Shown here: one piece after another, positions 8,653 to 46,359 of the stretch
How the letters are laid out: every line of letters starts with the position of its first letter
Position numbering within the stretch: the stretch's first letter is position 1
NCBI GenBank assembly: GCA_947561395.2
Contig: OX387186.1
Location: forward strand, 9,289,888-9,353,887
DNA: 64,000 nt
Source of the DNA: Buxus sempervirens
Taxonomy: Eukaryota; Streptophyta; Magnoliopsida; Buxales; Buxaceae
Direction: 5' to 3'
Made by a program: the position numbers and the translations under genes
The notes under the pieces: model-generated
Told to the model about the DNA's origin: nothing
The model's database searches: none
What the model saw: only the letters and a program-made list of their open reading frames with translations

Positions 8653-8794
8653 GTATCCGGCATATCAGGCCGGATACACAAGGGTCTTAATGTATCCGGT
8701 ATATAATACCGGATATACTAAGGAGTGCTTGTATCCGGTATCTTTCACCGGATACAAAGAAGAACACTTGTATCCGGCCTGAGTTGCCGGATAC
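8653..8794 (-). repeat. 39-bp-spaced palindrome array (GTATCCGG theme), four units
   Basis: Units start at 8653, 8692, 8731 and 8770. Each is a 25-bp imperfect palindrome with arms GTATCCGG and CCGGATAC around 9 variable bases, followed by a 14-bp spacer; the spacing is exactly 39 bp three times. It belongs to the reverse solo LTR and lies upstream of that LTR's TATA box. Arms are conserved while inner bases vary. Confidence 0.9.
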
Positions 8795-22611: not shown

Positions 22612-22715
22612 TGTGTGCACGTCGTGAGAACGCAACGCGATGGTGCACGCAATGATAGGTGCGAGGGAACAGGGGTGTAAAGAGTCGCCACTACCTGATG
22701 AGGTGCAGGCAAAAC
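22612..22715 (-). mobile_element. Reverse LTR fragment, part 1 (end of a CGCACAC-type LTR)
   Basis: On the minus strand this reads like the end of the LTRs at 6107-8540 and 58643-62628: a GCCTGCAC...CAGGTAGTGGCGACTC block (PBS-like core at 22682-22690) followed by a GTGCACACA terminus. It is split from its continuation at 43562 by the 20.8 kb Tat element. Confidence 0.75.
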
Positions 22716-22818
22716 TGTAGACACCCCAAATTGCACTACAAAATGAGAAAGTAATAAAAACATGTAATTAGAACTTAAAACAGGTCAAAAAAGCATAAAA
22801 ATTGAATAAACAGGCTTT

Positions 22819-22922
22819 GCCCATATTTCCTTCACGGGCCCATCGCGCCCGAAAATTATCTACGGACAGGCGCGCCCGTAGTAACAATACGGTCTCCGTT
22901 GGACCGTAAATCATTTACGGGC
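22819..22922 (+). repeat. 28-bp-spaced palindrome array in the 5' LTR (GCCCGTA theme), four units
   Basis: Units start at 22819, 22847, 22874 and 22902. Each is 21 bp: a left arm like GCCCGTA/GACCGTA, 7 variable bases and a right arm like TACGGGC/TACGGTC; spacers are about 7 bp. Arms are conserved and centres are not. The array lies about 200 bp upstream of the TATA box. Confidence 0.92.
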
Positions 22923-23123
22923 ATTAAAGACACGTGCGAGTTTTGTCCTTCTCTCGATTTCCGAGCTTTATTTGAAGTCCAATATATCTTTAAACGAGCG
23001 AATTAAGTATTTTATTCGCTGAAGCCACCTTGGTTGGCTATGGATAGGCATTATCTCTGTATTTCACTCTATCTTAAAGACCAGGCTATATCCTTCTGGA
23101 CCAACCATGCCCCTGGGTGTGTC

Positions 23124-23131
23124 TATAAATA
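23124..23131 (+). promoter_or_regulatory. TATA box of the 5' LTR
   Basis: TATAAATA in the context GTGTCTATAAATAGAGGC. The same box, followed by GAGGCTC/GGAGGC, appears in the Tat-type LTRs at 13062, 42162 and 58114 and on the minus strand near 48563 and 6040. It is the likely RNA polymerase II promoter for genomic RNA. Confidence 0.8.
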
Positions 23132-24531
23132 GAGGCTCTTTCCTCTAGCTAAGGGCCACGAAATTTTGAGTCCAAGGAATTCTAAGAAGCTTCAAGAGAA
23201 GAGAAAGAACTCCTGCTGCCTGCCTGCTCAATCCAGGTAAGTCCCCTATCCCTTTTTATTTTCTGTCTTCAAATCTAGAAGTAATAGGATCATCTCTATT
23301 GCTGTAGAATAAGGCCATATCTGTTTTTGTATTCCTAAACTTGTCTCTAAGTACCTCAAGAGTCTCTCTAGCCGTAAAACGTGAAGAGAGAACTAGGGGA
23401 AAGGGGAACAGGTGGATCCCTAGAATAGAACCCCATATCTGTTGTTCTCTTTTTTTTAGAATAAGGCCTGTGATTGTGTTTGTGTAACCAAACCTATCTC
23501 TAAGTACCTCAAGAGTCTCTCTAACCGTAAAACGTGAAGAGAGAACTAGGGGAAAGGGGAACAGGTGGATCCGTAGGGTAGACCCCCATGTGCTCTAATT
23601 TGTGAGATGTGGCTATTTTGAATATCCTGATCATGTTTTAATGCTTTTTATGATATATCTGAATGAATCACATGAATCTATGATGTTTATAGCATGAGAT
23701 CCCCACTTTTTGATAAAAATTGGATTTTTGCCACTTTTACACTTACAGCATTGTTTTCGTGATTTTTGTGAGTTTAGGCTAGGATCTTGGATTTATCATG
23801 ATCAATATGGTAGATCTGAATCCAGAAGCCTGAAAGTAAATTCTAGGGTTTCATGATGTGGTTTTTGAGTCCTTTTTCCTTTTTTGAGATAAGACCCTAC
23901 GGTCTAAATTCTCCCCTTTTGGTGTTCTTCATCAACGTGGGTATTTTTGGTTTTTATTTTCTGATTTAATGTGAACTTTGAGCTTTATCTATGTCCTGGA
24001 CTATTCAAGTTCAATTTTGAAATATTTTATAAAAATCATATTTTCTCGATTTCTAGAATTTGACTTGAAGCCAGATTTTTGGATTTTTCACTTTAAATTG
24101 ATTTTATTTGATTTTATCTCAATTTTATTTTGATCATGAAACCCTAGGAATGGTATGATCATATTTGAAAGTTCTGGATCAATCAGACTATTCATATGAA
24201 AAAACCATACAATTTTTGTCTTTTTGTAATTTTTCCTGAATTTTATAGCAAGCCTTTTATCTTTGAAAAACATGAACAATGCCTGGCAATCACCTTGTGT
24301 GGATGAATAGGGGTGCCTAACACCTTCCCCTGTTCATAACCTAATCCCCTTACCCATCTCTGGTTTTTTTTTTAGGAGGGATATTTTTGCCCTAAATTTG
24401 CCTTTTGTGCTTATTTAATATTTTGGTGTCCATTCACACCTAAATTGAATGGTGGCGACTCTTTGTTCTATTTAATCCCGTGTGATGATTGAGGAAATCA
24501 TTAAATTGATTTTTTTCCCATGTCTCACAAT

Positions 24532-24550
24532 TGGCGACTCTGCTGGGGAC
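24532..24550 (+). promoter_or_regulatory. Primer binding site, tRNA-Arg
   Basis: TGGCGACTCTGCTGGGGAC begins three bases after the 5' LTR end. It complements the 3' end of plant tRNA-Arg(ACG) (…CCCCAGCGGAGTCG plus CCA) with one mismatch as I recall that tRNA. tRNA-Arg priming is known for Ogre/Tat-type elements. Confidence 0.8.
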
Positions 24551-25757
24551 TTGTGGATTTTAGCCTTTTGGTGTTTTAGTTCATGTTTTTGATATTTTTT
24601 TTATTTGCTTGCTATTTTGTGTTCTTGAGCATGTTGGGTATGTTTTAAATCTGAATTATTGCTTAAGAATTCATGGGGGTAGAAACATGCTTAATTTTGA
24701 TTTATAGGATTGTTTCTACAAACATGCGTAGGGGAGGTCCGTTTTGATGAACTATGCTTATTTCTTGCTATATTTTTAGGATGGCATGTTTTAATTTTCA
24801 GCATTATCTCCATGATGATTTTGGGTGTATAACATGATCATATGTTTGCATGATAGATGATTTTTTTTTTATGAGCATGTTTTGGGTGCTATAGGATTGC
24901 TTTATTTACTTGTTTATTTTAAATATGCTTTCCTATTATGCCTTGGTTTGTTTATGCATGGCTGCGAAAAGAGTGGCAAGGGTTTGGGACGTTGTGAATG
25001 CACCCTATTTTTACAATGCATTGTGCACCTTTTATTTTTACACAGCCTACCCTTAACCTATAGGAAGTTGAACCCGAATGTGTGTAGCTTGGCGCAACGA
25101 GGTCGATACTTCGGAAAGCGAAAGTGAAAACATTCACCTTAGAACTTTGAGCTAATAATGTGATGATAACGTGGATCTGGGATTCTGGTCATCACTAGGC
25201 TTGAGTGCTAAGTTGCCATTAAGCCAAAACCCAAAACCCCTACGCTTGAAGGTGGAGTTACACGTTTTTGGCTAAAGTACACAATTACGTGGGGATATGG
25301 GTTTGTATGATTGTGGAAGGCCGTGTGCATGGCTTACAAACCAGGGCATAATGCGGATGCCATATTGAAGGTAAACAAGGTAACAAGGTAATCCTATTGT
25401 TTTGCATTATTTTCATGTCATAGGGGTGTCATGGTGCCCATTGGTTCGGGATAAAATTGGTCCCAAAATATGCATATTTTCTAAAATTGGTGCAGCCCAT
25501 AGGAAGAGTTTCTAACTCTGTTTAGAATCAATCCTACCCAATGTTCATACAAGAGGCAACACAAGGGTACCAAATTCTAGAATATGGAGTCAATTTGGAG
25601 GGTACATGTGCCTTCCTAAACACGTGTTTTAGCAAAAAGGCCAAGGTCCACTTTGGGACAGTTTAGAAGCTCTGCAATGGGTGAACCGTACGTTTGGATG
25701 AACAATGAAAGTGATCAAACCATGTAAAAACTGGAAAAATATAACAAGGTTCCGTAA

Positions 25758-25890
25758 AACCGCATTTAGTACACGGGCTGGGCTTGCCCGTATTAGTTAT
25801 ACGGGCTAGGCTCGCCCATGTTTTCCATACGGTCACGGCTTGCTCGTAATTTGAATACGGGCAGGGCTGGACCATACTGTGTATACGGTT
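25758..25890 (+). repeat. 28-bp-spaced palindrome array in the leader (GCCCGTA theme), five units
   Basis: Units start at 25758, 25786, 25814, 25842 and 25870, exactly 28 bp apart. Arms are GCCCGTA/GCTCGTA/GACCATA and TACGGGC/TACGGTT. The motif and spacing match the LTR array, but the inner 7-mers differ, so it is not a simple recent copy of the LTR block. Confidence 0.93.
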
Positions 25891-26040
25891 TTCTCGGAAT
25901 ATTCAACTTGAATTAGTTTTTCCCACTAAAATCTTCCTTTAACCTTTAAATAATGATAAAGGGAAACAAGTTTGAATAAAATGCTTCAAATAATAATAAT
26001 AATAATAATAATTGAAAAAAACATGTGAGAGAAAGGTTCC

Positions 26041-26720
26041 TTGGACTTCAGAAACCCCTTTGAATTTCAGACTTTTCAAAAAACTCTTGGGCCTCTGAAA
26101 GCCTTTGAATTTCAGATTTTTCAAAAAATCCTCGGGCCTCTGAAAGCCTTTGAATTTCAGACTTTTCAAAAAAAAAAAAAAACTCTTGGGCCTCTGAAAG
26201 CCTTTGAATTTCAGATTTTTCAAAAATCCTGGGCCTCTGAAAGCCTTTGAATTTCAGAATCTTTCGGCCTCTGAAAGCCCTTGAATTTCAGAACTCTTGG
26301 GCCTCTGAAAGCCTTTGAATTTCAGACCTTTTTCTTTTGAGCCTCTGAAAGCCTTTGAATTTCAGAACTTTTGGGCCTCTGAAAGCCTTTGAATTTCAGA
26401 CCTTTTTTTTTTGGGCCTCTGAAAGCCTTTGAATTTCAGACCTTTTTCTTTTGGGCCTCTGAAAGCCTTTGAATTTCAGATCTTTGAGCCTCTGAAAGCC
26501 TTTGAATTTCAGACTTCTTTTTTCAAAATATCCCTGGGCCTCTGAAAGCCTTTGAATTTCAGACTTTCATCAAAAATCCTTGGGCCTCTGAAAGCCTTTG
26601 AATTTCAGACCTTTTCCAAAAATATCCCTGGGCTTCTGAAACCCTTTGAATTTTAGACCTTTTTCAAAAAACCTTCTGGGCCTCTGAAAGCCTTTGAATT
26701 TCAGATCTTTCTCTCTTTTG
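26041..26720 (+). repeat. Tandem array of small hairpin-forming units before gag
   Basis: About 15 units of 30-52 bp share GGGCCTCTGAAAGCCTTTGA followed by ATTTCAGA. Each can fold CTGAAA against TTTCAG around a 9-nt loop. Units are separated by variable T-rich linkers (CCTTTTTCTTTTG and similar). Short ORFs on both strands are read-through of the repeat. Confidence 0.92.
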
Positions 26721-26934
26721 TGGGACCTGTTGGAAACCCTAGAATATTCCAACAATCCAATTCAAAAAAAAAAAAAAGCAAATAAAGAAAGAAACAAATC
26801 CAAACTCGTGTTCACCCAGCTTGCACATAGGCATGTGAATGAGATTAAATTGGCACTGATATTTTCTCTTTATTTTTCCAGGTACCAATACACTTGCAAT
26901 CATAGCTCCTGTAACCAGATCAAGAGCTCGCGCC

Positions 26935-29900
26935 ATGAATCCCATTGAAGATGAAGTTGATGCTCCTCATCCAGATGTTGTTCTACTCCAAGAACAAGTG
27001 GCAGGACTAGCCCGAATGCTAGAGAACATACTGTCAGTACAGGCCCAACAAGTGCAGGCCCAACAAATGCAGGCATCCACATCCAACCCTGCACCTCCAC
27101 CCCCAGTCAATATTCCACCTCCAGTGCAACCAACTCCTGAACCCGTTTATGAACCCACCCCTGAACCTATACTGACCAGGGATGAGACAGCTGAGTCAAA
27201 CAAGGCTAAGGAAATGGAAAGGATAAGGGAAGAGGTTGAAAGAAAGTTCATGCATAAGCTAGAAATGATCCAAGATGAACTAAGGGAAGTCAAAGGGGTA
27301 AACAACTTTGGAGGCACCAATTTTGAAGACCTGTGCCTATACCCCAATGTTAACCTGCCGGCTAAGTTTAAGTGCCCAGACTTGGACAAGTATGATGGCA
27401 CTGGTTGCCCCATGAGCCACCTAAAGTTGTATTGCGGTGCCCTATGCCAGTTCGGGCAGGATGAGGGTATCTTGATCCAACTTTTCCAAAGGAGCCTGAC
27501 TGGAACCGCATTAAGATGGTTCGCCACTCTGGACCATGGAAAGATCAAAAGATGGAAGGACCTAGCCGATGCCTTCCTGGCTCAATACCGGTTCAATTCA
27601 GAGATCATGCCAGATAGGTACGACGTCATGAGAATGAGCAAAGGAAGGGATGAAACTGTAAGGCAATATGCCAAGAGGTGGAGGGAGACGGCCTCCCAGG
27701 TCAGGCCACCCATGCTAGAACAGGAGATGATTTCTACTTTCATAAGCACTTTGGGTCAACCATTCTACAGCCACTTGGTGGGTCAGACCACCACTAATTT
27801 TGCAGCTTTGGTTCAAGTGGCCGACCGAATAGAAGACGGGATCAAGTCAGGTAAGATAATTGACCACTCTACCATGGTTAGTCAGCAAGACCCTAATCAG
27901 AAGAAAGGAAGCGGGATAAAAAAGAATGGGAACAAGAAGGAGGGTGAGGTAAACATGGTACAGCCACCATCTGGCCCTAACAAGCCCATACAAATCAACA
28001 TACCTGCTCATTTTCCTACTCCATCTCCATCTACCCAGGCCCCTATGAGGGTTAATGTTCCAGCAGCACCTTCAGACCAAAAAAGGGTTTTTACCAAAGA
28101 GGAAAAGGATGCCTATTTTGCAGCAAGGAGAAATAGGGTTTTCACCCCTATTCCAATGACTCCCTCTCAATTGCTGCCCACTTTATTGCAAGGAGGGTAT
28201 ATCACCTTAAGAGAACCTAATCCGAATGCATCTAAGGGGAGAAATTTTGACCCCTCCACCACTTGTGATTACCATATGGGTGCACCTGGGCACCCTACTG
28301 ACAAGTGCTGGCCTTTGAAACATGCCATTCAGGATTTACTGGACCAGAATACCCTGTCTTTCAATACAGGGGCTCCCAATCCTCCAATAACCGATATTGG
28401 ACAAAACCCACTGCCCCAGCATCACGGGGCAGGTCCATCTAATGTCATAGGAGTCATCTCTTCTGACAAAATAACCTTTGACCCATCTCAATTAATTGCT
28501 CCCATAGGGACAACGGTCAAAGTATATTTTGACAGGAGAAGTGAAGGCAAAGAAATAAATATGATTTCAAAGGGGAATGATAGTGCTGCAAAGAACATTA
28601 GCTCATCTTTGGACCGGGTCGCATCCCTCATGGCCCAGATGAACATCACCAAGCCACCTTTGGTCATTAATTACAATCCATCCACTTTTACTCCGCCCAT
28701 TCAGTCTAAGCCACCATTGGTCATAAATTGTGACCCCCTTAGTGCATCAGTCACTTCTGCAAACCCCCAACCAAAACAACTTCCTCCATTGGTTGTTAAT
28801 GTTCCTATTACTCAGACTTCCATCGCCAAGTCCAAACTTCCCCCATTGGTGGTGAATGTCCCTAAGCCTTCCTACATTGAATCGGCTGTACCATGGAACT
28901 ACAGTGAAGCATTTACCACTACATGCCCTGCAGTTGAAAGCAAGGAAGAAGTAAACCTCATGATGAGGTCAGGAAAATGTGTAGGGGTGGAAGAAAAACA
29001 GAAAGAAACAGAGAAGGAGAAAGAAGAAGAAAAAAATAAAGGCAAGGCCAAGGAAGGGGAAGAGGCCCCTCAGGTAACTAACAGTGAGGCTGCTGACCTC
29101 ATGAAGATAATAAAAAAGAGTGAGTTCAATGTCATCGAGCAGTTGAACAAAGTCCCTGCCCAGATCTCGATTCTGGGACTATTGTTAAATTCTGAAAAAC
29201 ATAGGGACTCCTTGTTAAGGATACTCCAGGGGGCCCATGTGCCTAAAAATATTGAACCAGACCAACTAGGCCGGATGGTTGGTCAAATTTTATCCCACAA
29301 TGTGATAACTTTTTCTGAGACTGAAATCAGTCCAGCAGGGTACCATCATGGGTCGGCTCTCAATGTCTGCCCATTGATAACCTTTGTTAAGCTCAATCTG
29401 GAGCGAAAAAAAATAAAACAAAATGGAAGAATTATAAGAGCATTTGACAGCTCTAAAACACACTCCCTTGGAGAGGTTGAACTGCCGGTCACAATTGGAC
29501 CGTATATTTTTAACATCACATTTGAAGTGATGGATATACCTGCGGCTTTCAACCTACTCCTAGGAAGGCCGTGGATTCATACGGCTAGGGCCATACCATC
29601 TACCCTCCATCAAAGAGTCAAATATATTAGAGGGCAAAAGGTGATTACCGTCCTGGCCGAAATTTTGGTTCCCCCCATGTGGTCCCCTGATGTACCCTGT
29701 ATAGACATGGAAATGACTGCTGAGAAGATGACATTTCACTCTTTCCAATTTGAAACTGTTAATTTCATACCTGGGGGGTATCAGGAAAAAGAAGGAAAGT
29801 TGACCTGTGCTGAGAGAATGGTCAAAAATGTGCTAGAAAAGTACCATTTTCACCCTGGAAAAGGTCTGGGGGTTAACTTACAAGGAAGAATAGAACCGGT

Positions 29901-32900
29901 ACAGATCAAGAAGATGGTTCACAGAGCAGGATTGGGGTCCAAACCAAGGAAATGGAGAAGACAGGGGCAGATAGAAACTATGAAATTCCCTCATATCAGG
30001 GAAACTTTTCCAAAGCTTTCTCACATGATTCAACTGTCTCCTCCTGAGGATCAGTCCAAACCTCCATACTACAATGTCAACCCATTCCAGAAACCTAAAC
30101 CCTCCACAATAGAACCATATGTTCCACCTCCACCTCCACAAGCATCTGGTGGGCCTGGGCCACAGGCAGAACAGGAGCAGGACTTTTCTGAGGACGTAGG
30201 GGCATTCTTTGCCATGACAGAAGACAACCAAGAAAAAGTAGCAGAGGAGCTACCTTTTATTGATTGGGCTGCAGTAGAAGTTCCATCTGGAACTGGCCCT
30301 ACAGAAGAAACAGGCGATGCAACTCACCCAATACTGGTGATCTCTGATGCAGACCCTGAGCTTGAGGAGCAGGCTTGTATCCCTGCCCCAGATTCTGTTA
30401 TTCTGAATAATTTGGAGGAAATTCCTCTTACTTTTGAAGCCGCGTTTGTTTGGCAAATAGACATGGCTTCCAAAAAAAAAACTCCATTAGTGGAATGCCC
30501 TTTTCCTGAAGGTTTTAATGAGCCTTCGTCTTCAAGGAAAGATTTTGTAGAAGGCTCTCAAATAACACAAAAAGATTTTTCAGTTTTTTCTAGAAAAGAT
30601 AAAGTTTTCAAAAAGGTCCAAACCATTTATGAACCATATAAGCAAACGGAATTGGATCAGGATGAGTATGACTTCGACCTTGAGCTCGACTTTGACCTTG
30701 AGCTCGACTTTGACCTAATGGGGGTTGAAGAAGAGACCGAGGACGAAGAAGACGACGTTCCAAAGGAAATCACATATCAATTAGAGCGTCATGAAAAGGG
30801 GGTCCAACCCAATATTGAAGAGACCATATCAATAAACCTAGGGACCGAAGATGACCCAAAAATAGTGAAGATTGGGGTATGTCTATCTGAGGTACAGCGG
30901 GAAGAAATGATACGGTTCTTAGCCGACTATGAAGATGTATTTGCATGGTCGTATCGGGATATGCCAGGGTTAGACACAGACATGGTTGTGCATAGGCTAC
31001 CTATTCTACCAGATGCTAAGCCAGTTAAACAGAAACTGAGAAGGTTAAAACCTGAATGGACATTGAAGGTCAAAGATGAAGTGGTTAAACAATTCCAAGC
31101 CGGATTCTTAGCAGTCTCCACGTACCCTGAATGGCTTGCAAATATAGTGCCAGTACCAAAGAAGGATGGAAATGTCAGAATGTGCGTAGATTACAGAGAC
31201 TTGAATAAGGTAAGTCCAAAGGATGACTTTCCACTTCCACACATAGACATCTTGGTGGATAACACCGCTGTACATAGTCTATTCTCATTCATGGACGGCT
31301 TTTCTGGTTATAATCAGATCAAGATGGCTAAGGAAGACCAAGAGAAGACAGCCTTTATCACCCCTTGGGGTACCTTCCACTACACTGTCATGCCATTTGG
31401 ACTTAAGAACGCTGGGGCAACCTACCAGAGGGCCATGACAGCCTTATTCCATGATATGATCCATAAGGAGATGGAGGTCTATGTGGATGATATGATAGCC
31501 AAATCATGTGAAGAAGAAGACCACTTGATCAACTTGAAGAAGGTATTTGACCGGCTTAGGAAATACAATCTAAGGCTTAACCCTGCGAAGTGTGTCTTTG
31601 GGGCTACATCAGGAAAATTGTTGGGCTTTATAGTAAACAGAAGGGGAATTGAGATTGACCCAGCTAAAGCTAAAGCAATCATCGAAATGCCATCACCTAG
31701 AACGGAGAGGGAGGTTCGTGGTTTTCTTAGAAGGATTCAGTATATAAGCCGGTTCATAGCACAGCTCACCGCTATCTGTGAACCAATTTTCAAACTTCTA
31801 AGAAAGAATAACCCGACAGTCTGGAATAATGATTGCCAAGAAGCCTTTGACACAATAAAGGAGTATTTATTGAACCCACCTGTGTTAGTACCACCCACTC
31901 CAGGAAGACCATTGATTTTATACTTGTCAGTTTTGGAGACATCAATGGGGTGTGTCTTAGGACAGCATGACGATACAGGCAGAAAGGAGAGGGCGATTTA
32001 CTACCTGAGTAAGAAATTTACAGAATATGAAGCAAAGTACTCCCCATTAGAAAAGACTTGTTGTGCCTTAGTGTGGGCAACTCAAAGACTGAGGCACTAT
32101 TTCCTTAGTCATTCCACCTTATTGATATCCCGAATGGACTCTTTGAAGTATCTATTTGAGAAACTGGCTTTAACTGGCGGAACAGCAAAGTGGCAGTTGT
32201 TACTCTCTGAATTTGACCTCACCTATATCACACAGAAGGCCATTAAGGGACAAGCCATTGCAGATCACTTAGCTGCACACCCTTTACCAGAATACCAACC
32301 CTTAAAGACCAACTTCCCTGATGAGGCAATCCTGTTTGCTGAAGAGGAAGAAGGCGAAAGCTCATGGCAAATGTTTTTTGATGGGGCCGCCAATATGAAT
32401 GGAAATGGAATAGGGGCTGTGTTGATCAAGCCAGATGGGGCACATATCCCAATCGCAGTAAAGCTAAGGTTTCAATGCACGAACAATATAGCAGAGTATG
32501 AAGCATGCATAATTGGGTTGCAAGCTGCCTTAAACCATGAAGTAGAGGAACTTGACGTATATGGGGATTCGAGTCTTATCATCTTCCAAACAACTGGTGA
32601 AGGGAAAACCAAGGATCACAAATTGATCCCCTATCACCAGTATTTGGAAGAAATAAGCAATAAATTTACTCGAATTTCCTTCAATTATATGCCAAGGGCC
32701 AAAAATCAGTTTGCGGATGCTCTAGCAACATTGGCTTCAATGGTCAGTATGCCAGAAGGTGTTGATATTAGACCATTGGAAATTGAAGTCAGGGATGAAC
32801 CAGCTTACTGCCTTGTTCTAGAAGAAACCCCAGAAGAAGAAGTACCATGGTTTCAAGACATTAAGAATTTCCTAAATGATCGAAGTTTACCAGAAAATGT

Positions 32901-34095
32901 CACCTCTACAGAGAAAAGAACAATACAGAGGCTGGCAGGACAGTTCTTACTAAGTGGTGGGCAGTTGTACAAAAGATCACACAATGATATACTACTTAGA
33001 TGTGTTGCAAAGACTGAGTCAGAAAGGATAGTTGAAACGGTACATGGAGGAGTGTGTGGACCCCATATGAATGGGCATATGCTTGCCAAGAAGATTCTGC
33101 GATTGGGATATTACTGGTCGACTATGGAGCATGATTGCTATATACACGTCAAAAGATGTCATTTATGCCAAGTGTACGCAGATAACAAGAATGCACCCCC
33201 AAGTGAATTACACAATATGACATCTCCGTGGCCTTTTTCTATGTGGGGTATAGATGTCATTGGAATGATCTCTCCAAAGGCATCAAATGGACATAGATTT
33301 ATACTCGTAGCAATTGATTACTTCACCAAGTAGGTAGAGGCAGCTTCATATGCAAACATTACGAGTAGCCATGTTCTTAAGTTTTTGAAGCACAACATCA
33401 TTTGTCGCTATGGTTTGCCAAGTGCCATAGTGACAGACAATGCTTCAAACCTTAAGAACAAAGACATGAGGAAGATGTGTGAACAATTTCAGATTACCCA
33501 CCACAAGTGAGCGCCTTACAGACCAAAGATGAATGGGGCAGTGGAAGCAGCGAATAAGAATATAAAGAAGATTATTCAAAAAATGGTGGTGAGTTTTAAA
33601 GATTGGCATGAAATGCTGCCACTTGCTCTACACGCTTACAGAACCTCAATCCGGACTTCTACAGGGGCAACCCCATATTTCTTAGTATATGGAATGGAAG
33701 CAGTTTTACCAGTGGAAGTGGAAATACCTTCATTAAGAGTGCTAATGGAAGCTGAATTAGAAGAAGCTGAATGGATACAGTCTAGGCATGATCAACTCAA
33801 TTTAATAGAAGAAAAACATTTGAAGGCACTTAGTCATGGCCAATTATATCGGAAGAGGATGGCCAGGGCTTACAATAAAAAGGTGAAGCCCAGAACTTTC
33901 CAAGAAGGAAATTTGGTATTAAAGAAGATTTTACCCTTTTTGGAAGATCCTCGTGGAAAGTTTAAACCAAATTGGGAAGGGCCTTATATAGTCAAGAAAG
34001 TCCTATCAGGGGGTGCTCTCATCTTAACAGAAATGGATGGGAAGGATTTTCCTGAGCCAATTAACTCTGATGCAGTAAAGAGATATTTTCCATGA
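26935..34095 (+). pseudogene. gag-pol: gag-pol polyprotein of the Tat retrotransposon, two in-frame stops in integrase
   Basis: One frame of about 2387 codons, open for 2132 codons to TAG at 33331-33333, then TGA at 33508-33510, then open to 34093-34095. In order: gag domain (about aa 135-310, with RWFATL and QYRFNSEIMPDRYD); a zinc-knuckle-like C-x2-H-x5-H-x4-C (about aa 443-457); repeated PPLVVN segments; a protease-like region ending LLGRPWIH; a G-patch (about aa 955-1005); an acidic DFDLEL linker; reverse transcriptase with YVDD (about aa 1515); RNase H; a second archaeal-type RNase H (about aa 1810-1940, DGAAN, AEYEA, YGDSS, FADALA); integrase with HHCC zinc finger and D,D,E core. Both stops fall inside the integrase core. 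The protease lacks a visible D-x-G motif. The element would need helper proteins to move. Confidence 0.93.
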
Positions 34096-35052
34096 ATGAA
34101 TATTACTAGGAAATGATCTGAGGCCATTGTTCTTTATATCCCAAAATTTGAATCCCTAGTCAAACCAATTTGAGCCTGTTCGTCTTTTTTTTGTTAAACC
34201 TAAACTGGACTTACAGCCTTATACTGGGGCAAAGCCAATAAGGGCAAGGCCAATAGGGGCAAAAAGAAAAAAAAAATTTTGAGAAAAAAAGAGAGAAAAA
34301 AAAAATAGGGGCAAATAAAAGCCAAATACAAAAGAAAGGGAATGGGATTGAATTCACCATGACTGTAAGTCCAGTTGACCCATTTTCACACTTAGAAAAT
34401 TTTGAGCCTTTAATACCTTTTATTTCATAAACCGAACCTAGCCTTTGTTTCGTCCTATTATTAAGACCTCGGTGATTTTAGTATATTCATTCAACTTTCA
34501 GAGTAAGATTGGTGATGACGGAATGCAGAGGCCAACCCTAGTGAAAACCGTAATTGGCACTAGGGGCAAGAAGGGCAAAAAGAAAAAAAAAGAAGAAAAA
34601 AAAAAGGAGAGAAAAAAATCAAAGGTTGAGTTGATCATGTTGTCTAAATTTAATCAGCATGAGCACTGGAAACTAAGCAGATTAGCAAGGCCAATCATGA
34701 AGGAAAAACCATTAGGGGATGATTCTAAAGGTCACGGGGTAGACAGATTTGGTCTCTCCCTATTGCTTGGACTACCCTTTTCATTATTCAACCTGATTTT
34801 AATTCCTTTAATTATATGTGATTATGTGTTTTGGATCAGCTTTCAAAAAAAATAAATAAATAAATAAATAAAAAACTATACTTTGGCCAGTGATGAGAAA
34901 TCAAATACTTTTTCATAAAACTTTTGTTTTTACAAGCATCTGAGAATTCTGAGGCCAATAATATAAAACCTATTTTTGAATTAAATCTATTATCTTTCCA
35001 CTAATGGAGTTTGCTTTTGTATAAAAGTATGAAAAAAAGAAGATAAAAGAAT
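34096..35052 (+). other. Sequence after pol, between convergent sense and antisense genes
   Basis: Contains a GGGGCAAAGCCAATAAGGGC repeat-like segment (34225-34265), purine-rich A/G tracts (34264-34310, 34575-34620) and an (AAAT)n run at 34850-34873. A 136-codon ORF here is dominated by lysine runs and is not supported as a gene. Related sequence occurs at 55090-55300 in the defective element, which confirms it as conserved 3' noncoding retrotransposon sequence. Confidence 0.6.
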
Positions 35053-36749
35053 CTAACCCCTACTCCCTAACTGCTCCTCAAGCTCCCTAATCCTAGCTGC
35101 CTGAGTTGCAATGATTCCAGAAGCACCCTCTGCATCAGGATCACTCAAAAAGGAGATGACCTCATCTGAAAAAGAATGCTTGATCTTCAATGCCCTAAGG
35201 TCGGCCAAGGAATCCTGATACTTCTTCCGCATCACTCGGACTTCAAAGCGACGAGCTTGCCTTTGTTCTTCAAGTTTCTTCTCCATGGCAATACGGCCAG
35301 ACTTCTGCTCCTCAAGTTTCCTCTCCAGAACAAGGACTTTTATCCTAAGTTCTTGAGCCTCCCGTACCCATATTTGTTGAAGCCACTTATGGGTTGCCCT
35401 TTCTGACTCCAGAATGTCCTCATAAGTAGGAGGAAGAACCACAGGAGGATCTTCTGGTACTGGGGCATGACTCTACACCTGCTCTTTGATCCAGAATTGA
35501 TAATCCTTCACATGGGACTCTGAAAAGACAGGACCCCGCAGAAAACGGACGTAGGACCACTCTTTCATTAATTGAGCAGTTAGCCCCATGGAGGCTGGTA
35601 TAAGTGGCCCTAAAAGCTTCTCATATCCAGTAGGGATCATAATTCCCTGGGTCGCTCCAAACTGCCGAAGAACCCTCAAAGGAAGATAGAGAACAGCAGA
35701 TTTCAAGCCTGCTAGGACCAGAAAGTTTTTATCTCTAAAGCTGATCACTGTCTCTGGAGTGGGCTGATAAGTGCCAGGCCATCTCACTTGATCATCCTGG
35801 AGAGTACCCAAGAAAGTAAACCAGCCTTGCTTGCCACCTTGGATGTTAGGACATCCCCTATTGCTCATCAAAACAGGAACTTTCAATCTTGGAAAGAAGC
35901 GGCGAGTTATTTCTTCAACCTAGCTAAGATGGTCAAGCAACCAAAGCTGCAGAAAAAGGGAGTATTTCAATTTATTTCCAAAAAGAAAAAAAAAGAAGAA
36001 AAAGAAAAAATAAAGAGAGAAAAGAAAAAAAATATATGCATATTTTTTACCTGTAGGATAGGGGCGCAGGCAAGGAAACGCTTCTTCTTCCTGAAATAAC
36101 AGTCAGTAAGGGCCTGGTATATCTCTGCTAAGATCATAGGGGCTAATCTCTCATGTTCCCTAACCTGGCAGATAACTGAGATAAGAGCCAAATCAACCTG
36201 GTCATCACCCCGTGGAAAAAACATCTGATTGACCACTACTAGGGTCAATGCATTAAACCTAGCGTCCTTGTCATTACTCCTCAGAAGTTTTTCAGTCAAA
36301 AAGGTCTTGGACAAGGTTAATAGTGCATCAGAATTTCCTAGGTCCTTCTTCCCTATACCCAAGAAAGTGGAAGCCTCTTTTTTATAACTAAGCTTTAGGG
36401 GTAGGTTCACAACTTTTTCAGAAAATCTTAGGCCAAGGATGGTTTCAATTTCTTCTATGGTGGGAGTCATCTCTTTATCATCAAAACGGAAGAGATTCAG
36501 CTCAGGTACCCAGTGGCCAATCAAAGCTTCAATGATTTCCCACTTAAAGGGAATTTTAGGGAGGTGTAGGATGTGCCCTAAGTGGATGGAATCCCAACGA
36601 ATCTCCTCATCAAGGGTCATGGAGTTAACCCATCTATCATAAAAAGAATCCAAAATATTGTACCTGGTAAGATTAGGAGGTTTTGATCTAACAGGTTGTC
36701 TTGCAGGAGGAGATTCAACGGCAGGAGAAAGCGGCGTAGGGGAAGCCAT
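35053..36749 (-). pseudogene. Antisense gene 1: DUF7745/plant-mobile-domain-like protein with coiled coil
   Basis: Minus-strand gene with two exons. Exon 1 (36749-36051, 233 codons from ATG, MASPTPLS) contains IIEALIGHWVPELNLF and FNALTLVVVNQMFFPRG...CAPILQLWLLDHL, the pattern of plant DUF7745/PMD (aminotransferase-like) proteins. The intron (36050-35947, 104 bp, GT..AG, phase 0) leads into exon 2 (35946-35053), which finishes the domain (VLYLPLRVLRQFGA) and adds a charged heptad-like coiled coil (EERKLEEQ-type, about 100 aa). Two in-frame stops break exon 2: TAG at 35922-35920 and TAG at 35475-35473. PMD proteins such as MAIN/MAIL1 act in transposon silencing in Arabidopsis; antisense ORFs of this kind are known from Tat/Ogre elements. 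A TATA box and palindrome array lie directly upstream. Confidence 0.75.
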
Positions 36750-36840
36750 GGAAGCGCCAAAGAAGCCAAGGAAAGCGAGAAAAGACGTGCTCAGGGAGTT
36801 TTTCAATTAATAAAAGTGTCACAATGACGTTCCCTATGAG

Positions 36841-36848
36841 TTTATATA
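36841..36848 (-). promoter_or_regulatory. TATA box of antisense gene 1
   Basis: TATATAAA on the minus strand (TTTATATA on plus), 92 bp upstream of the ATG at 36749. A start about 30 bp downstream would give a leader of about 60 nt. It is 23 bp from the nearest unit of the palindrome array at 36871-37002, the same order as in the LTR promoters. Confidence 0.6.
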
Positions 36849-36870
36849 GAAAAAATCGTAAGGCAGTAAA

Positions 36871-37002
36871 TTCCGTAATTATACTATGGGCAAAGCTCGC
36901 CCGTATAGGAACTACGGACACCCTTGACCGTGAAAACTTCACGGGCAGAGTGCGCCCGTAGTACCTTTACGGGCATGGCTTGCTCGTAGAGTAAATACGG
37001 TT
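36871..37002 (-). repeat. 28-bp-spaced palindrome array at the antisense gene 1 promoter, five units
   Basis: Units start at 36871, 36899, 36926, 36954 and 36982. Arms match GCCCGTA/GACCGTG/GCTCGTA and TACGGGC/CACGGGC with variable 7-bp centres. It lies between the end of antisense gene 2 (37221) and the TATA box of gene 1. Confidence 0.93.
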
Positions 37003-37220
37003 TCTTCGAAAAAATGCAAAAAAAATGGAAATTTTAATTTCCTTGGTTTCCCTAAGCTTCACTTGTCCCTGTTTTAACATTCATCAGGTAATAAATACTG
37101 AAAATAAAGAAGAAAAGAACACAAATGGAAATAAATCAAACTTATTTTATATATATATGAATGTTTACATCACTGTTGCCAAAAAATACAAATGTACATG
37201 GAAGAATCCTAATCTAATGT

Positions 37221-40080
37221 CTATGCAGGTCCGCCCCTACGGCCACGGCCTCGTCCTCTGCCTCGACCACGGCCTGAAGATCGCTTGCGCTCAAAGACAT
37301 GCCGCACAATATTGCGGACTGTGCTACGCGTCATCCTGCTCAAAACAGACTGAATATCATGCCACATATATAAAGGAACAAGGCCAGCAGTGGGATGATC
37401 AGGAGGGACGTACCCTGAAGTATCTACATCAGAATCAGTACGGGAAGACTCCGCTGACGTATCAACAGCAGCATGCGTCACCTCAGCATCCTCCATAGCA
37501 GGACTAGCAGGAGCAGAGGTCCCAGGTACATCAGCATCAACCCCAGGCTCTACAGGATCAGCTGTAGCCTCCTCTATCACCGCAGTCTCCACGATAGGCT
37601 CTACCACAGCGGCGTCCATAACCGACTCCATATCTACATCCGCAGATGCCACAGGAGCAGTCTCAGCTACTGGGGCAGACTCTGGCACATCCTCAGCAGC
37701 AGGTACAATATCAGGCTCGACCTCGGGCTCTGCTGCAGGAACCTCTACGGGACTGGGAGACGTCACGAACTCCACCCGTGCCACAGAAAATACCTCATCC
37801 CGAAAATGCATGGGCACGGGTGAAGCAGATGAAGAAGGGTCGGCTGTGTCCTCCTGAAACTATAAGAAAAATTCAGTCAAAACAAGACAAACAAATACAA
37901 GAGCAGGAATGGAAATAAAAGAAGAAATTAACCTGAGTATAAGATGGACCCGCTTGGTCCTGTGCATCAGATGGACCTTCCTGGCCCTGTGCTCTGGCTA
38001 GCTGCCCCCGGAGGTCTGAAATGGTGATATAGAGGGCATCCCGCTCGGCAATCGCAGCATCTCGCTGGCGCTCTAGATCAGCATAGCGAGACCGGATCTC
38101 TGCCAACTGGGCCTCCTGAAATAGAAAAAAAAAAGAGTCAGAAAAATGCTAAGTGCAGATGAAATGAAAATAGAAAGGTGAAAAGGAAGAAGGCATACCG
38201 TAGTGTCGTAGGCCCTAATCACTACTCCTCCTATCTCCGCGACTCCACCACGGACAGGCATGGGTGGCATGAGGCACCCAACAGAAGCTCGCCTGAACCA
38301 GGCATCATAGTCACCCTCCTCCAATAATGTCTCTACCTCAGTCCAATCAAGGAACTGGGCAGGATCAACAGGCATAGGAGGATAGGAAGGAGTAGTATCT
38401 GGCAGGATGGCAGGAATCCGCGGCTCTCCCACATGCTAAAAGAAGAAGCGCTCGCCGCAGTACCAGATGCTACCCAGCTGACCAATAAAGAACTGGTATC
38501 TCTGTCGTCTCTGGTCAGGGACAAATGCATCATCTCTGGCTGCCTGCAGGGCCAGCACCTCATGAATGTCCTCCATCCTGGGGACAAATAGCTGAAAAAC
38601 AGAACAGGACATCAGATATGTGATTCAGAAAGAAAAGAAAAGAAGAAAAAGAGGAATTGAAGTAGATTACCTCAGACCGATACAACCTGTCCAAGTGGGC
38701 CCGGGCGGACCTGGGACGACTCTTTTCAGAGTCGTGCTCTACATGACACCATCTACGTGCCATGGGATACGTCTCCTCAGGCATCGTAGAGGTAGGGCGG
38801 AAATAGGGTATATAAACCCTAGCAAAAAACTGCAAGAAAGAAGAAAATAGTCAGAAGAATAGAAAAGGAGAGATAAAAAGAAAGAGATAAAGAAAAAGAA
38901 GGGAAATAAGATTCACCTGCAAGAAGGGCCAGAAGAACCTGCACCCAACTCCAGCCCCTCTGGAAGTAGAGAGGCCGCTCACTGATCGGCGTAGGCCGGC
39001 CAGAATAGTACCAAAACTAAGCGGTCCCCATGCATACCTCCTCGCCCGCTGCAGATCTCCCAGAAGACTCAGAAAATAAGGACTAACTGAAGTCGTGTCC
39101 TCTGGGAAGAAGCAGGAACCCATCATGTACAAGAAGATAAATCTGAAGGCAAAAGGAAAAACATGGTCACCGGCAGCAAGCTGGCCAAACTGCCTCCTCC
39201 TGAAAGTCTCTCTCAACCATGTCAGAGACAATCTCGCTCTCCCCCGATCCCAGGCCTCTGGAGGCAGTACAATATATCCAAGATAACCAGCAATCTCATC
39301 AGCCTCTGGCATCGCCATCTCAGGAATAACATCACCGATCATCCTAATCCCGGTGATGAGCGTGAAATCAGAAGGCCGGATCCCAATCTCAATATCTGGG
39401 AAGTGGAAGCTCAATGTCTCCGGGAAAAACCTCTCCAGCAAGGCAGCAATGAGGGCTCGATCCAAGCGAACGTCCGGGATGGTGATAAACATGCCAAATC
39501 CATATAAGCCTAACTCCCGACGATAGGCCGAACTGCAAGCTCCCAAAAATCTAGTGAAGCTGGCCCAACTCCCTCTATAGTGGGACATCGGATACTCCAA
39601 AGGGATATCCACCCTAACGCACGCTGAGGGATGAGTCCTCAAGCCATGCAAAAGATCGGTATCCCTAATCTGGGCAGCCACCTCCTCAGGGATCTCAACC
39701 CTGGTCCTGGCCTCATCTCTGCCACGGCCCCCTCTGCGGCCTCCTCTACGGCCCTCATCATGGCCCACATCTCTGCCTCCAGCTCGACGCCTACTATGGC
39801 TCCTATCTCTGCCCGAAGCCTCAACTGCCGGCTAAGGAAATAATTGGAGAGAAGAAAGAATCAAGAAGATGTATTTTGGGAAAGGATATGAAATTTCAGA
39901 AAGGTTAGAATATACCTCTGGGGTCGCCTCACGCGAATCCCCAGAAGGAAGATCCGGGACATCAGAATCTGAATCCCTCTCAGCCCTCGAAGACGAGGCC
40001 ACATCAGCAGGATCTCGCCTAACCCTCGAGGAGGAAGGCTCATCTGCAGGATCCTGGGAAGCTGATCGAAGACGGGCCAT
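37221..40080 (-). pseudogene. Antisense gene 2: six-exon plant mobile domain (PF10536-like) protein with RG-rich ends
   Basis: Exons on the minus strand: 40080-39916 (ATG, MARLRS), 39831-38917, 38829-38671, 38591-38199, 38115-37933, 37853-37221. All five introns are 79-87 bp, have GT..AG ends and are phase 0; the joined frame is 816 codons. Exon 2 carries the PMD: ALIAALLERFFPET, DFTLITGIRM, FIFLYMMGSCFFPED, YFLSLLGDLQRARRYAWG. Exon 3 has YPMARRW. Exon 5 is coiled coil (ADLERQRDAAIAERDAL). Exon 6 is long, acidic and Pro/Ala/Val-rich and ends in RGRGRGRGRGRRGG; exon 2 starts with another RGG-like stretch (RRGGRRGGRGR). One in-frame TAG (38438-38436, exon 4) breaks it. A possible noncoding first exon ends at a GTATGT donor near 40940 with an acceptor just before the ATG. 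Confidence 0.75.
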
Positions 40081-41298
40081 CTACGGTTCAAACCAGGGAG
40101 TTGGTTAATTATTCTTGTTAAAATTTTTAATTGCTTAATCTTTATTTTAACCAAGTTTAATTGATTAGCAGGAAAGAAGGCACTTCAGAAACTCCAAATC
40201 AAATCAGAAGTCAACTGAAGGAGTTTAATTTTTTATTTGGAGAAATTTTATTGTGATATTTACTTATCTTTAAAATGAAAAAATTGGGAGTTAAGGATTT
40301 ATTCTAATATATCTTGTATTTTGGTTTCAGGACAGTCAAGGCATGTTCAAATTGATGTGAAGTTGTGAACAAGAGTTTAAGTCTATTACAGTCTGGGTTT
40401 ATTCAGAAGAAAATTCAGAAATGTATCATGATGTTCTAACATCCCATGGATCAAGAATTGGTTCATATCAAACCCACAAGTGGTCAACTCAAGCTAAGGT
40501 TTTCAAAGCAAAATTCAGGCATTAGTTTACAATCAGAACACTGAAATGAAAGCATGAACAGATGTACACAACATGCTAAATAAAGATGAGCCAATGACAG
40601 TGACAAATTGCTTCATGATGATCAATGTCAAAAGGGAATACAAATTTCAATTGAAAGCATACTGCCAATAAGGCAGAAATTCAGTTCCAAACAGAAAAGT
40701 TGCAAACATCAGCAGAGAGCAAACTTAAAAATTCAGGAATCTGTTCACTCAAAAGCCAAAACTGTTAGCCCAAGAGCAGAAAATCATCCGGTCGAATATG
40801 AGATTTATTCATGAAGATCATACAAGTATTTTTCGATGCAACATTGGCATAAAAATCAGATGGTGAACAAATTGGAATCAAGGACAGAAAATGGAATAGC
40901 TCATGGACGAATTGCTTATAAAATCTGAGAAAAGACATACCTGTTTATCTGAATTTCGAAAAGGAAAATGTGAGCTTGGTCTCACCAAAGCAAGGAGGTG
41001 CTCAATCACAGGAGCCATCCACGGTCGGTTATTGTTTCGAAGGATCACCCAAGGGAGCAAGCAAAATTCGGATGGTTGCAGAAGAAAGGAACAGTCGTCC
41101 AAGGAAGAAAGCAAGGACTCGCCGGAAATAGGAGAGTCGCCGGAGAAGGAGAGAGTCGTCGGAGAACAACAGGAGTCGTCGGAGATTTGAAGGAGAAGAA
41201 GAAGGGCCGGAGAAGAGAGTGCGGGCGCAGAGAAATTAGGGCAGAAGTGTGAGCAGAGAAGGAAAAATTCACGTTCGCGGTCTTAAGAAGAGAGTAAA
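40081..41298 (-). other. Upstream region of antisense gene 2 (leader and possible 5' intron)
   Basis: No protein gene supported. On the minus strand, 41272-41045 has the pyrimidine- and CTCC-rich composition of a plant 5' leader. CAGATAAACAG|GTATGT at about 40950-40936 is a good donor, and GAACCGTAG precedes the ATG at 40080, so a leader intron of about 860 bp is plausible. The 40150-40900 part is AT-rich and otherwise unremarkable. Confidence 0.4.
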
Positions 41299-41402
41299 AT
41301 CCGCAAACTCAGTACGGGCTTCAGACGCCCGTGAAATCAATACGGTCCCGGTCGCCCGTGAACCCTCTACGGGCAGGACCAGCCCGTAAGCCAAATACGG
41401 GC
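41299..41402 (-). repeat. 28-bp-spaced palindrome array upstream of antisense gene 2, four units
   Basis: Units start at 41299, 41327, 41354 and 41382. Arms are GCCCGTG/GCCCGTA and TACGGGC/TACGGTC with variable centres. It lies immediately upstream (minus strand) of the leader-like sequence starting near 41272. The spacing and motif equal those of the LTR and gene 1 arrays. Confidence 0.93.
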
Positions 41403-41739
41403 GAAGCCAAAAATTGCGTATTTTATCATTTTCTCCACATTTTGAAGAGATTAATGTACATATTAGTTGTAAGTTGCAAGGATTGTCACCTTACCCACTT
41501 TTGTTTAAAAATTTTGTCTCAAATCTCACTTCATAGCCCACAAGTGCTCAGTGAGAGGAGAGAGGAGGATTTGGCCCTTAAGCTGAGGGATTTCTTAGCA
41601 AATCTTCCACAATCAATTCTTTTTTTTCAAAAATCATCCCTTTAATCCTTGCAAAGTGCAATTGATTATACAAAAATCTCAGAAAGTGCAATTGGTGGGT
41701 CTTTTTGCTCTCTGCTTGTAATTGGTTCCAATTACCAGC
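41403..41739 (+). other. Sequence between the last array and the polypurine tract
   Basis: No gene recognised. Contains AGTGAGAGGAGAGAGGAGG (about 41550-41568), a purine run, and a repeated CTCAGAAAGTGCAATTGG-like segment near 41640-41692. It includes the end of the element's internal region. Confidence 0.5.
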
Positions 41740-41753
41740 AAAGATGGGGCAGC
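41740..41753 (+). promoter_or_regulatory. Polypurine tract
   Basis: AAAGATGGGGCAGC directly precedes the 3' LTR at 41754. The defective relative has GCAAAGAGGGGCAGT at the same place (57227-57242). It is the expected start of plus-strand DNA synthesis; the pyrimidines make it imperfect but family-typical. Confidence 0.7.
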
Positions 41754-43561
41754 TGTAGACACCCCAAATTGCACTACAAAATGAGAAAGTAATAAAAACA
41801 TGTAATTAGAACTTAAAACAAGTCAAAAAAGCATAAAAATTGAATAAACAGGCTTTGCCCATATTTCCTTCACGGGCCCATCGCGCCCGAAAATTATCTA
41901 CGGACAGGCGCGCCCGTAGTAACAATACGGTCTCCGTTGGACCGTAAATCATTTACGGGCATTAAAGACACGTGCGAGTTTTGTCCTTCTCTCGATTTCC
42001 GAGCTTTATTTGAAGTCCAATATATCTTTAAACGAGCGAATTAAGTATTTTATTCGCTGAAGCCACCTTGGTTGGCTATGGATAGGCATTATCTCTGTAT
42101 TTCACTCTATCTTAAAGACCAGGCTATATCCTTCTGGACCAACCATGCCCCTGGGTGTGTCTATAAATAGAGGCTCTTTCCTCTAGCTAAGGGCCACGAA
42201 ATTTTGAGTCCAAGGAATTCTAAGAAGCTTCAAGAGAAGAGAAAGAACTCCTGCTGCCTGCCTGCTCAATCCAGGTAAGTCCCCTATCCCTTTTTATTTT
42301 CTGTCTTCAATTCTAGAAGTAATAGGATCATCTCTATTGCTGTAGAATAAGGCCATCTCTGTTTTTGTATTCCTAAACTTGTCTCTAAGTACCTCAAGAG
42401 TCTCTCTAGCCGTAAAACGTGAAGAGAGAACTAGGGGAAAGGGGAACAGGTGGATCCCTAGAATAGAACCCCATATCTGTTGTTCTCTTTTTTTTAGAAT
42501 AAGGCCTGTGATTGTGTTTATGTAACCAAACCTATCTCTAAGTACCTCAAGAGTCTCTCTAACCGTAAAACGTGAAGAGAGAACTAGGGGAACAGGTGGA
42601 TCCGTAGGGTAGACCCCCATGTGCTCTAATTTGTGAGATGTGGCTATTTTGAATATCCTGATCATGTTTTAATGCTTTTTATGATATATCTGAATGAATC
42701 ACATGAATCTATGATGTTTATAGCATGAGATCCCCACTTTTTGATAAAAATTGGATTTTTGCCACTTTTACACTTACAGCACTGTTTTCGTGATTTTTGT
42801 GAGTTTAGGCTAGGATCTTGGATTTATCATGATCAATATGGTAGATCTGAATCCAAAAGCCTGAAAGTAAATTCTAGGGTTTCATGATGTGGTTTTTGAG
42901 TCCTTTTTCCTTTTTTGAGATAAGACCCTACGGTCTAAATTCTCCCCTTTTGGTGTTCTTCATCAACGTGGGTATTTTTGGTTTTTATTTTCTGATTTAA
43001 TGTGAACTTTGAGCTTTATCTATGTCCTGGACTATTCAAGTTCAATTTTGAAATATTTTATAACAATCATATTTTCTCGATTTCTAGAATTTTACTTGAA
43101 GCCAGATTTTTGGAATTTTCACTTTAAATTGATTTTATTTGATTTTATCTCAATTTTATTTTGATCATGAAACCCTAGGAATGGTATGATCATATTTGAA
43201 AGTTCTGGATCAATCAGACTATTCATATGAAAAAACCATACAATTTTTGTCTTTTTGTAATTTTTCCTGAATTTTATAGCAAGCCTTTTATCTTTGAAAA
43301 ACATGAACAATGCCTGGCAATCACCTTGTGTGAATGGATAGGGGTGCCTAACACCTTCCCCTGTTCATAACCTAATCCCCTTACCCATCTCTGGTTGTTT
43401 TTGTTAGGAAGGATATTTTTGCCCTAAATTTGCCTTTTGTGCTTATTTAATATTTTGGTGTCCATTCACACCTAAATTGAATGGTGGCGACTCTTTGTTC
43501 TATTTAATCCCGTGTGATGATTGAGGAAATCATTAAATTGATTTTTTTCCCATGTCTCACA
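41754..43561 (+). repeat. 3' LTR (1808 bp) of the Tat element
   Basis: Almost identical to the 5' LTR, including its palindrome array (about 41857-41960) and TATAAATA at 42162-42169. Visible differences include an 8-bp deletion in the second AACTAGGGGAAAGG copy (about 42585), GTGTGAATGG for GTGTGGATGA near 43329, and changes in the T run near 43397. Flanked on the right by AGAAC. Confidence 0.95.
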
Positions 43562-44780: not shown

Positions 44781-44947
44781 CCCATTGGATACTAAATAGG
44801 GCTTAGGTCAAGCCCAATTCCCATTCGGGGTTATGTCGGATAACCCCGTTTATTGGATTTGGTTATTTGATTTGAGAGTTGCTTATTTACACAAAATTGA
44901 TGGGTTTACTGGACTTAACCGCAGAACAAGTGCGATTTGGCTCGAAC
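44781..44947 (-). mobile_element. Reverse LTR fragment, part 3 (truncated end)
   Basis: Residual GGCCCA-rich LTR sequence continuing from 43858. No TGTAGACACC terminus or matching TSD is seen before satellite sequence resumes in the pyrimidine tract near 44948, so the 5' end of this LTR is lost. Confidence 0.55.

Positions 44948-46323: not shown

Positions 46324-46359
<36 letters not shown>

Follow-up and report, generated by a model that had tools for sequence, protein, structure and literature searches.

VANDAL elements are MULE-type DNA transposons. According to passages of two papers (PMC5735166, PMC10398659), their VANC proteins bind short motifs that recur in tandem within non-coding DNA of the family to which they belong, the motif differs between related VANC proteins, co-evolution of protein and target is proposed, and AT9TSD1, a transposable element unrelated to VANDAL, carries VANC6 motifs; unpublished VANC-target co-evolution is mentioned in part of a meeting report (PMC12859917). 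A comparable arrangement is described here from a 64,000 nt window of Buxus sempervirens (the whole stretch of DNA analyzed: GCA_947561395.2, contig OX387186.1, 9,289,888-9,353,887 of the forward strand). The element concerned, E1 (22716-43561), is a Tat-type Ty3/gypsy long terminal repeat (LTR) retrotransposon with two antisense genes, and rows of palindromic sites stand in its LTRs, in its leader and at the promoters of both antisense genes. As in VANDAL, non-coding DNA of the element holds tandem copies of a short, family-specific motif, related families have different motifs and, much as AT9TSD1 carries VANC6 motifs, gag-only elements carry the motif of E1. The VANDAL motifs (YAGTATTAY, AGTTGTCC) are not called palindromes (the word does not occur in PMC5735166), whereas here palindromes of fixed geometry are found at each promoter of an LTR retrotransposon, together with PMD proteins.

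Sireviruses already provide a precedent for palindromes arranged in rows at LTR and internal promoters. Passages of PMC2829016 describe RM boxes, multiple palindromes with a CGG-CCG core that lie in the LTR shortly upstream of the TATA box and in some cases before the internal ENV gene, and suggest a regulatory role for them. The CGG-CCG palindromes in the LTR and before an internal gene are shared with E1, but Sireviruses are Ty1/copia elements, their boxes (such as CACCGGACTGTCCGGTG) have no fixed N11, host stress factors are proposed to act on them, and those passages report no switch of motif class together with an element protein. Antisense open reading frames (ORFs) between pol and the 3' LTR, as in E1, are on record for Tat, Ogre and Retand elements: passages of PMC6317226 and PMC11963269 give PMD in 57% of Ogre elements and suggest a regulatory, DNA-binding role for Retand TRP28 proteins, and a Retand antisense TRP28 (PF04195) ORF is given for 97% of clusters (PMC11963269, in part). 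In Ogre, a putative intron separates gag and pol (passage of PMC9289625). From these sources, antisense ORFs for PMD or TRP28 are already known, as are tandem repeats, and a regulatory role has been suggested, while the passages of PMC6317226 and PMC11963269 contain no promoter arrays or motif classes. The host PMD proteins MAIN and MAIL1, which have the PMD domain in common with E1, take part in silencing and in gene expression and have been correlated with a motif in promoters, and an anti-silencing use by MULE-captured PMD has been speculated upon (passages of PMC5418596, PMC7156037 and PMC9899485); the Gypsy PMDs are placed there in separate clades, A1 and A2. Judged by titles and the beginnings of abstracts in the literature outside subscription papers, what is new is a geometry fixed at N11, a motif class that switches throughout an element, and the tie to PMD genes and gag-only users.

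E1 is made up of the following parts:
22716..24529, plus strand: 5' LTR with TG...CA ends, flanks AAAAC/AGAAC (4 of 5 bases alike)
24532..24549, plus strand: primer binding site TGGCGACTCTGCTGGGGA, putatively of the tRNA-Arg type, a type that is a mark of Ogre elements
26860..33333, plus strand: gag, reverse transcriptase (RT), RNase H (RH), aRH and the start of the integrase (INT), an open frame of 2157 aa
36054..36749, minus strand: PMD1 exon (DUF7745/PMD) of antisense gene 1, minus-strand TATA at 36848
38920..39831, minus strand: PMD2 exon (PMD) of antisense gene 2, further exons to ~37220, one of which has an in-frame stop
41754..43561, plus strand: 3' LTR

The two LTRs are 98.8% identical. 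Within the polyprotein, RT_RNaseH (1681-1785) is followed by RVT_3 (1840-1958) and Integrase_H2C2 (2051-2106), the last scoring 21.3 bits, under the cut-off of 25.5, and because integrase sequence resumes in a second frame (33511-34095) the integrase is interrupted in this copy. The aRH between RNase H and integrase assigns E1 to the Tat clade (Ogre/Retand type), and the order RT, RNase H, aRH, integrase is that of a Tat-type Ty3/gypsy element and not of the Ty1/copia Sireviruses. E1 differs from VANDAL in being an LTR element that encodes RT and RNase H and whose antisense ORFs match PMD/DUF7745, from Ogre in having gag, RT, RNase H and aRH within a single 2157 aa frame, and from Retand in that hmmscan of its three antisense ORFs gave no TRP28 (PF04195) at E <= 0.01. 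These ORFs matched PMD/DUF7745, PMD and, for the third, nothing, with PF10536 (PMD) scores of 46.3 and 61.1 bits that exceed the cut-off of 34.9. The borders of the further exons of genes 1 and 2 were judged by eye, and E1 has in-frame stops outside the PMD1 and PMD2 exons.

Arrays of the palindrome GCCCGTA-N7-TACGGGC (class A) were found in E1 and in a related LTR, E2 (coordinates are without strand):
22819..22922: U3 of the 5' LTR, 4 units, TATA at 23124, ~200 bp further on
25758..25890: leader before gag, 5 units
36871..37002: gene 1 promoter, 5 units, 122-253 bp upstream of the ATG
41299..41402: gene 2 promoter, 4 units
41857..41960: 3' LTR, 4 units, a copy of the 5' LTR array
48780..48884: minus-strand LTR of E2 (48988 to ~47013), 74% identical to the E1 LTR

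A preliminary description of this DNA had located the five arrays of E1 at these positions, in U3 before the TATA box, in the leader and at both antisense promoters, with units 27-28 bp apart and arms better conserved than centres, and on all of these points it was borne out. The spacing is 28 bp, with a single 27 bp step in each array save that of the leader, and the gene 1 array lies 22 bp from the minus-strand TATA box; no TATA was found within 210 bp after the leader array, nor in the gene 2 promoter region of this copy. Certain units deviate at 3-4 of 14 arm bases, and sites with at most two mismatches number 27 in the window against 0 in 100 shuffles. When 64 trinucleotides were ranked at 38 spacings across the window, CCG-N11-CGG came first (42 seen, 1.9 expected; mean 2.4 and maximum 7 in 200 local shuffles). 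Across 31 class-A units, chosen at up to four mismatches and excluding the 3' LTR copy, the arms hold 0.76-2.0 bits and the centres 0.05-0.79 bits, and the half-site reads G[C/A]CCGT[A/G] with its fourth base, C, invariant (62/62). The same bias is seen between the LTRs of E1 and E2, where identical bases amount to 49/56 in the arms, 15/28 in the centres, 6/20 in the spacers and 132/204 downstream (Fisher test: p 0.001 when arms are compared with centres, and 2.5e-6 when spacers are added to the centres). In the leader, downstream of the class-A array (26095-26710), there are also 14 copies of a second palindrome, CTGAAA-N9-TTTCAG (inside GGGCCTCTGAAAGCCTTTGAATTTCAGA), at spacings of 33-96 bp.

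The host genome, 676.5 Mb, contains 11,266 exact class-A sites and none of the reversed control. With the same arms at spacings N8-N30, only 67 sites were counted in sum (control 28), several of those listed resembling altered arrays. Random scatter, which the preliminary description had named as a possible refutation, was checked for letters and spacing, and in both respects the sites are far from random. Gene 1 arrays are present in 30 of 30 close loci, E1 counted, with five units in 28 and four units in two.

Altogether four motif classes share the core CCG-N11-CGG and differ in their flanks, with spacings mostly of 27/28 or 39 bp. Besides class A they are class C, GACCGCA-N7-TGCGGTC (TGACCGCA-N7-TGCGGTCA), partly degenerate and spaced at 28 bp; class D, gtATCCGGY-N7-RCCGGATac, spaced at 39 bp and present as 20,444 exact sites in the host genome (control 0); and a fourth class (E), AACCG-N11-CGGTT, from a locus described below. 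The two spacings differ by 11 bp, about one helical turn, so that rotational phase would be kept.

A second family, with an RT 94% identical to that of E1, has the same anatomy, with class D in place in LTR and leader as well as at the promoters of genes 1 and 2; this four-position picture was assembled from several copies (L047, L048, L055 and LTRs). Three regions upstream of paired class-D LTRs were taken. Two of them, L047 and L048, have PMD1 and PMD2 in the antisense order of E1 and class-D units at both promoters (four and three at gene 1, three each at gene 2, with at most 3/14 mismatches), and the minus-strand TATA boxes of L047 lie 7-12 bp from the arrays. The third, L046, has no PMD and class-A units only, which are probably those of a nested LTR. 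The leader array comes from L055, where four class-D units, one with 4 mismatches, lie between gag and an LTR that itself carries class-D sites. Among the class-D sites listed, one contig has five sets whose distances alone would suit a 20 kb element with an array in each LTR and one between them.

The fourth class was met when loci were picked blind, with the DUF7745 profile and without the motif, and the five best of 118 scored were inspected. One of these, L059, has an orthologous PMD1 whose promoter carries three fourth-class units at distances of 69 and 28 bp. They lie ~133-246 bp upstream of the ATG (by eye), the place that the array occupies in E1. Seven CCG-N11-CGG sites occur in L059, against a mean of 0.22 and a maximum of 2 in 1000 shuffles. 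In the 12 half-sites the base after AACCG is C in five, T in five and G in two, so that class A and the fourth class do not simply share CCGT; an earlier idea, that PMD2 proteins resemble each other to the degree that their half-sites do, was rejected for this reason. A second fourth-class group (L059:3393-3512; 28 and 39 bp apart) lies further downstream, ~2 kb from where gene 1 starts, at a position where none was seen in E1. The DUF7745 frames of the other four loci (~4 kb each) are 295-457 aa long and belong to host genes or other elements, and many further DUF7745 places listed have open frames of 498 aa.

The co-divergence of motif and protein was compared across three families. Between the A and D families, amino acid identity is 94% for RT, 92% for RH-aRH, 90% for INT, 80% for gag (L055), 75-79% for PMD1 and about 49% for PMD2. 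Nonsynonymous divergence (dN) climbs accordingly, from 0.03 (RT), 0.04 (RH) and 0.05 (INT) to 0.13-0.15 (PMD1) and 0.49-0.50 (PMD2), and since synonymous divergence (dS) is high throughout, PMD2 need not have come from elsewhere. It is still under constraint, with dN/dS of 0.14 within D and 0.21-0.23 between A and D; the A-D value for PMD1 is 0.08-0.10 (copies picked by LTR), and within class D the identities are 87% (PMD2) and 94% (PMD1). The corresponding ratio from polymorphism (pN/pS) of PMD1 is 0.036 among 29 copies picked by protein score, a choice that biases pN low, and 0.097 for E1 against those copies. The PMD1 exon is stop-free in 146 of the 150 best-scoring genome copies (5737 first-look candidates) and the PMD2 exon in 119 of the best 130 (3520 first-look candidates). 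In the protein collection PMD2 had one distant MAIN-like match, and none with the region alone; MAIN-like relatives (18 of 120 listed) aligned with both PMDs. A PDB profile search gave weak T-cell receptor matches only, which are put down to chance, and among viral contigs there were no matches to two perfect tandem units or to PMD2.

Two gag-only, apparently non-autonomous elements (L053 and L054, ~10-14 kb), inferred from matched class-A arrays 9.9 and 12.1 kb apart, have LTRs of the type of F, a class-A LTR of the window (listed below). Their internal gag is 52-54% identical to that of E1, their primer binding site and polypurine tract are similar to those of E1, and their internal regions gave no RT, RH, INT or PMD at E <= 0.01. 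The presence of arrays in elements without the proposed protein suggests a factor acting in trans, of either the element or the host.

The reading that we prefer, although we would put it at slightly under an even chance, is that the arrays are operators of a sequence-specific regulator encoded by the element, PMD2 more probably than PMD1, in a system like VANC/VANDAL. The rows of palindromes would be the targets of a DNA-binding protein made by the element, probably binding as a dimer to half-sites 14 bp apart (CCG-N11-CGG), and the likeliest candidate is the fast-changing antisense PMD2, perhaps with PMD1. Since its sites would include those of LTR and leader and of the two antisense promoters, a single factor could coordinate every transcription unit of the element. 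Its most likely effect would be to maintain activity or prevent silencing, in the manner of VANC on VANDAL. Flank letters would be family-specific and would be altered at the promoters together with the protein, and gag-only relatives lacking polymerase and PMD would respond to the factor of the autonomous family by keeping its operator class. The preliminary description had suggested an element-encoded factor, possibly PMD, that coordinates expression or counters silencing, with VANC/VANDAL as the analogue. The joint change of class-D arrays at four positions and the A-D divergence of PMD2 lend indirect support to an element-encoded factor; the choice of PMD2 over PMD1 gains no clarity from the fourth class, and a host factor remains the main rival.

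Several observations weigh against this reading. The fourth-class element has a PMD2 (L061) 68% identical to A and 51% to D and a PMD1 74% identical to A and 69% to D; class A and the fourth class thus differ in motif, yet their PMD2 is hardly more diverged than their PMD1, and this pair fails to single out PMD2 as the A-D pair does. The A-D dS is near saturation (0.84-2.35; saturated for gag). Four of the five blind-picked DUF7745 loci (L056, L057, L058 and L060) have other ORFs and no arrays, and neither PMD nor arrays were found in the 7 kb regions upstream of three of three class-C LTRs. Between E1 and E2, sequence upstream of the array agrees at 85/103 bases and is thus hardly less conserved than the arms. 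A DNA-binding role of the PMD domain is itself presumptive; the AlphaFold model was useless (mean predicted local distance difference test score, pLDDT, 41), and the motif linked to the host proteins at MORC1, CATGCAGTTT, does not resemble these half-sites (passage of PMC9899485).

A host transcription factor family that dimerizes on CCG/CGG half-sites could drive the same promoters, the classes having arisen as families adapted to different paralogues. This is possible, if doubtful: the CCG-N11-CGG core is common to all classes, in F, G and gene 1 the arrays stop 10-22 bp short of a TATA box, as activator sites would. Also to the detriment of an element-encoded regulator, CGG-CCG palindromes upstream of TATA and ENV occur independently in the Sireviruses, which belong to a different superfamily, and were there attributed to stress factors of the host (passages of PMC2829016). 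Such a factor must, however, account for a joint change at four positions while the polyprotein barely changed, and it offers no reason for the strong A-D divergence of PMD2. Were the protein the element's own, it might instead be an autorepressor of its own and gag-pol transcription that limits copy number. The evidence from sites and protein is the same as for an activating regulator, and arrays beside the very promoters from which the protein would be expressed are as expected of autoregulatory loops; the abundance of classes A and D and their presence in gag-only elements would fit a benefit from binding better, and autorepression is regarded as unlikely.

Explanations without a binding protein fare worse. 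A neutral origin, in which slippage multiplied functionless repeats that then travelled with the elements as these were copied, is very improbable: tandem repeats are frequent in Retand elements (passage of PMC11963269), but the arms have outlasted centres and spacers between E1 and E2, and the geometry recurs with new letters at separate positions of the element. Hairpins, in transcripts or as DNA cruciforms, would suit palindromes with variable centres and a leader array that is transcribed if the start lies in the LTR. Arm pairs altered alike on both sides number 2 against 3.2 in shuffles, however, so that the changes are independent and not compensatory, which disfavours hairpins, and the loop is fixed at 7, with few sites even when the longer loops of N8-N30 are counted; this explanation is extremely improbable.

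If an element-encoded regulator is accepted, a wider proposal may be entertained, still tentatively and as a possibility short of the reading just preferred: plant Tat elements may have a private operator-regulator code, in which dimeric PMD proteins (PMD2 first) prefer particular flanks around a constant CCG-N11-CGG, families are mutually insulated, and gag-only elements survive by copying an operator class. Under this proposal the Gypsy PMD would bind DNA and serve as an activator or anti-silencing domain, a hint at how MAIN/MAIL1 might have originated. The feature itself is not confined to one element and reads as a specificity code across families. The question bears on the role of antisense PMD in plant Gypsy elements, on PMD DNA targets and on the amplification of silenced LTR elements; it yields exact candidate targets and several specificity classes with matched proteins, and it offers an explanation for partner choice by non-autonomous elements.

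Beyond the preliminary description, the window holds class-A arrays in the minus-strand LTR of E2 and in an inserted LTR (6675-7824), and two more classes, C and D:
6107..8540, plus strand: F, inserted LTR with a second backbone, target-site duplication CCCAC, class-A arrays 6675-6723, 6813-6889 and 7720-7824, TATA at 6904
8653..8794, no strand: class-D array, 4 units at 39 bp, inside a minus-strand LTR split by F
12754..12895, no strand: class-D array, 4 units at 39 bp, LTR starting at 12665, TATA at 13062
54200-54278: older class-C copy
57805..57911, no strand: class-C array, 28 bp spacing, partly degenerate, LTR starting at 57245
58643..62628, plus strand: G, inserted LTR with an F-homologous backbone, target-site duplication GTAGA, class-D units 59218-59281, 59361-59463 and 61520-61583, TATA at 59474

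The class-D units of G deviate at as many as 6 of 18 arm bases. The backbones of F and G are 73% identical over 332 bp and 68% over 320 bp, and LTRs with E1-like stretches carry class A, C or D. LTR backbone and motif class are therefore not tied, since the homologous F and G carry A and D. Each of the two is nested in another LTR, and the class of its own array differs from that of the LTR it splits. Class C was rejected as an autonomous class: the upstream regions of the three class-C LTRs lack RT, and gag is present in two of the three.

Elsewhere in the window, a large inverted repeat (15578-20807) resembles a foldback element, with 1256 bp arms that are 100% complementary, more sequence inside, and ~32 copies of a 22 bp tandem repeat per arm. 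Repeat units often ~700-760 bp apart and broken by LTR elements occupy 9477-12665, 20812-22709, 44911-53623 and 63378-64000, and are possibly satellite DNA riddled with nested retrotransposons.

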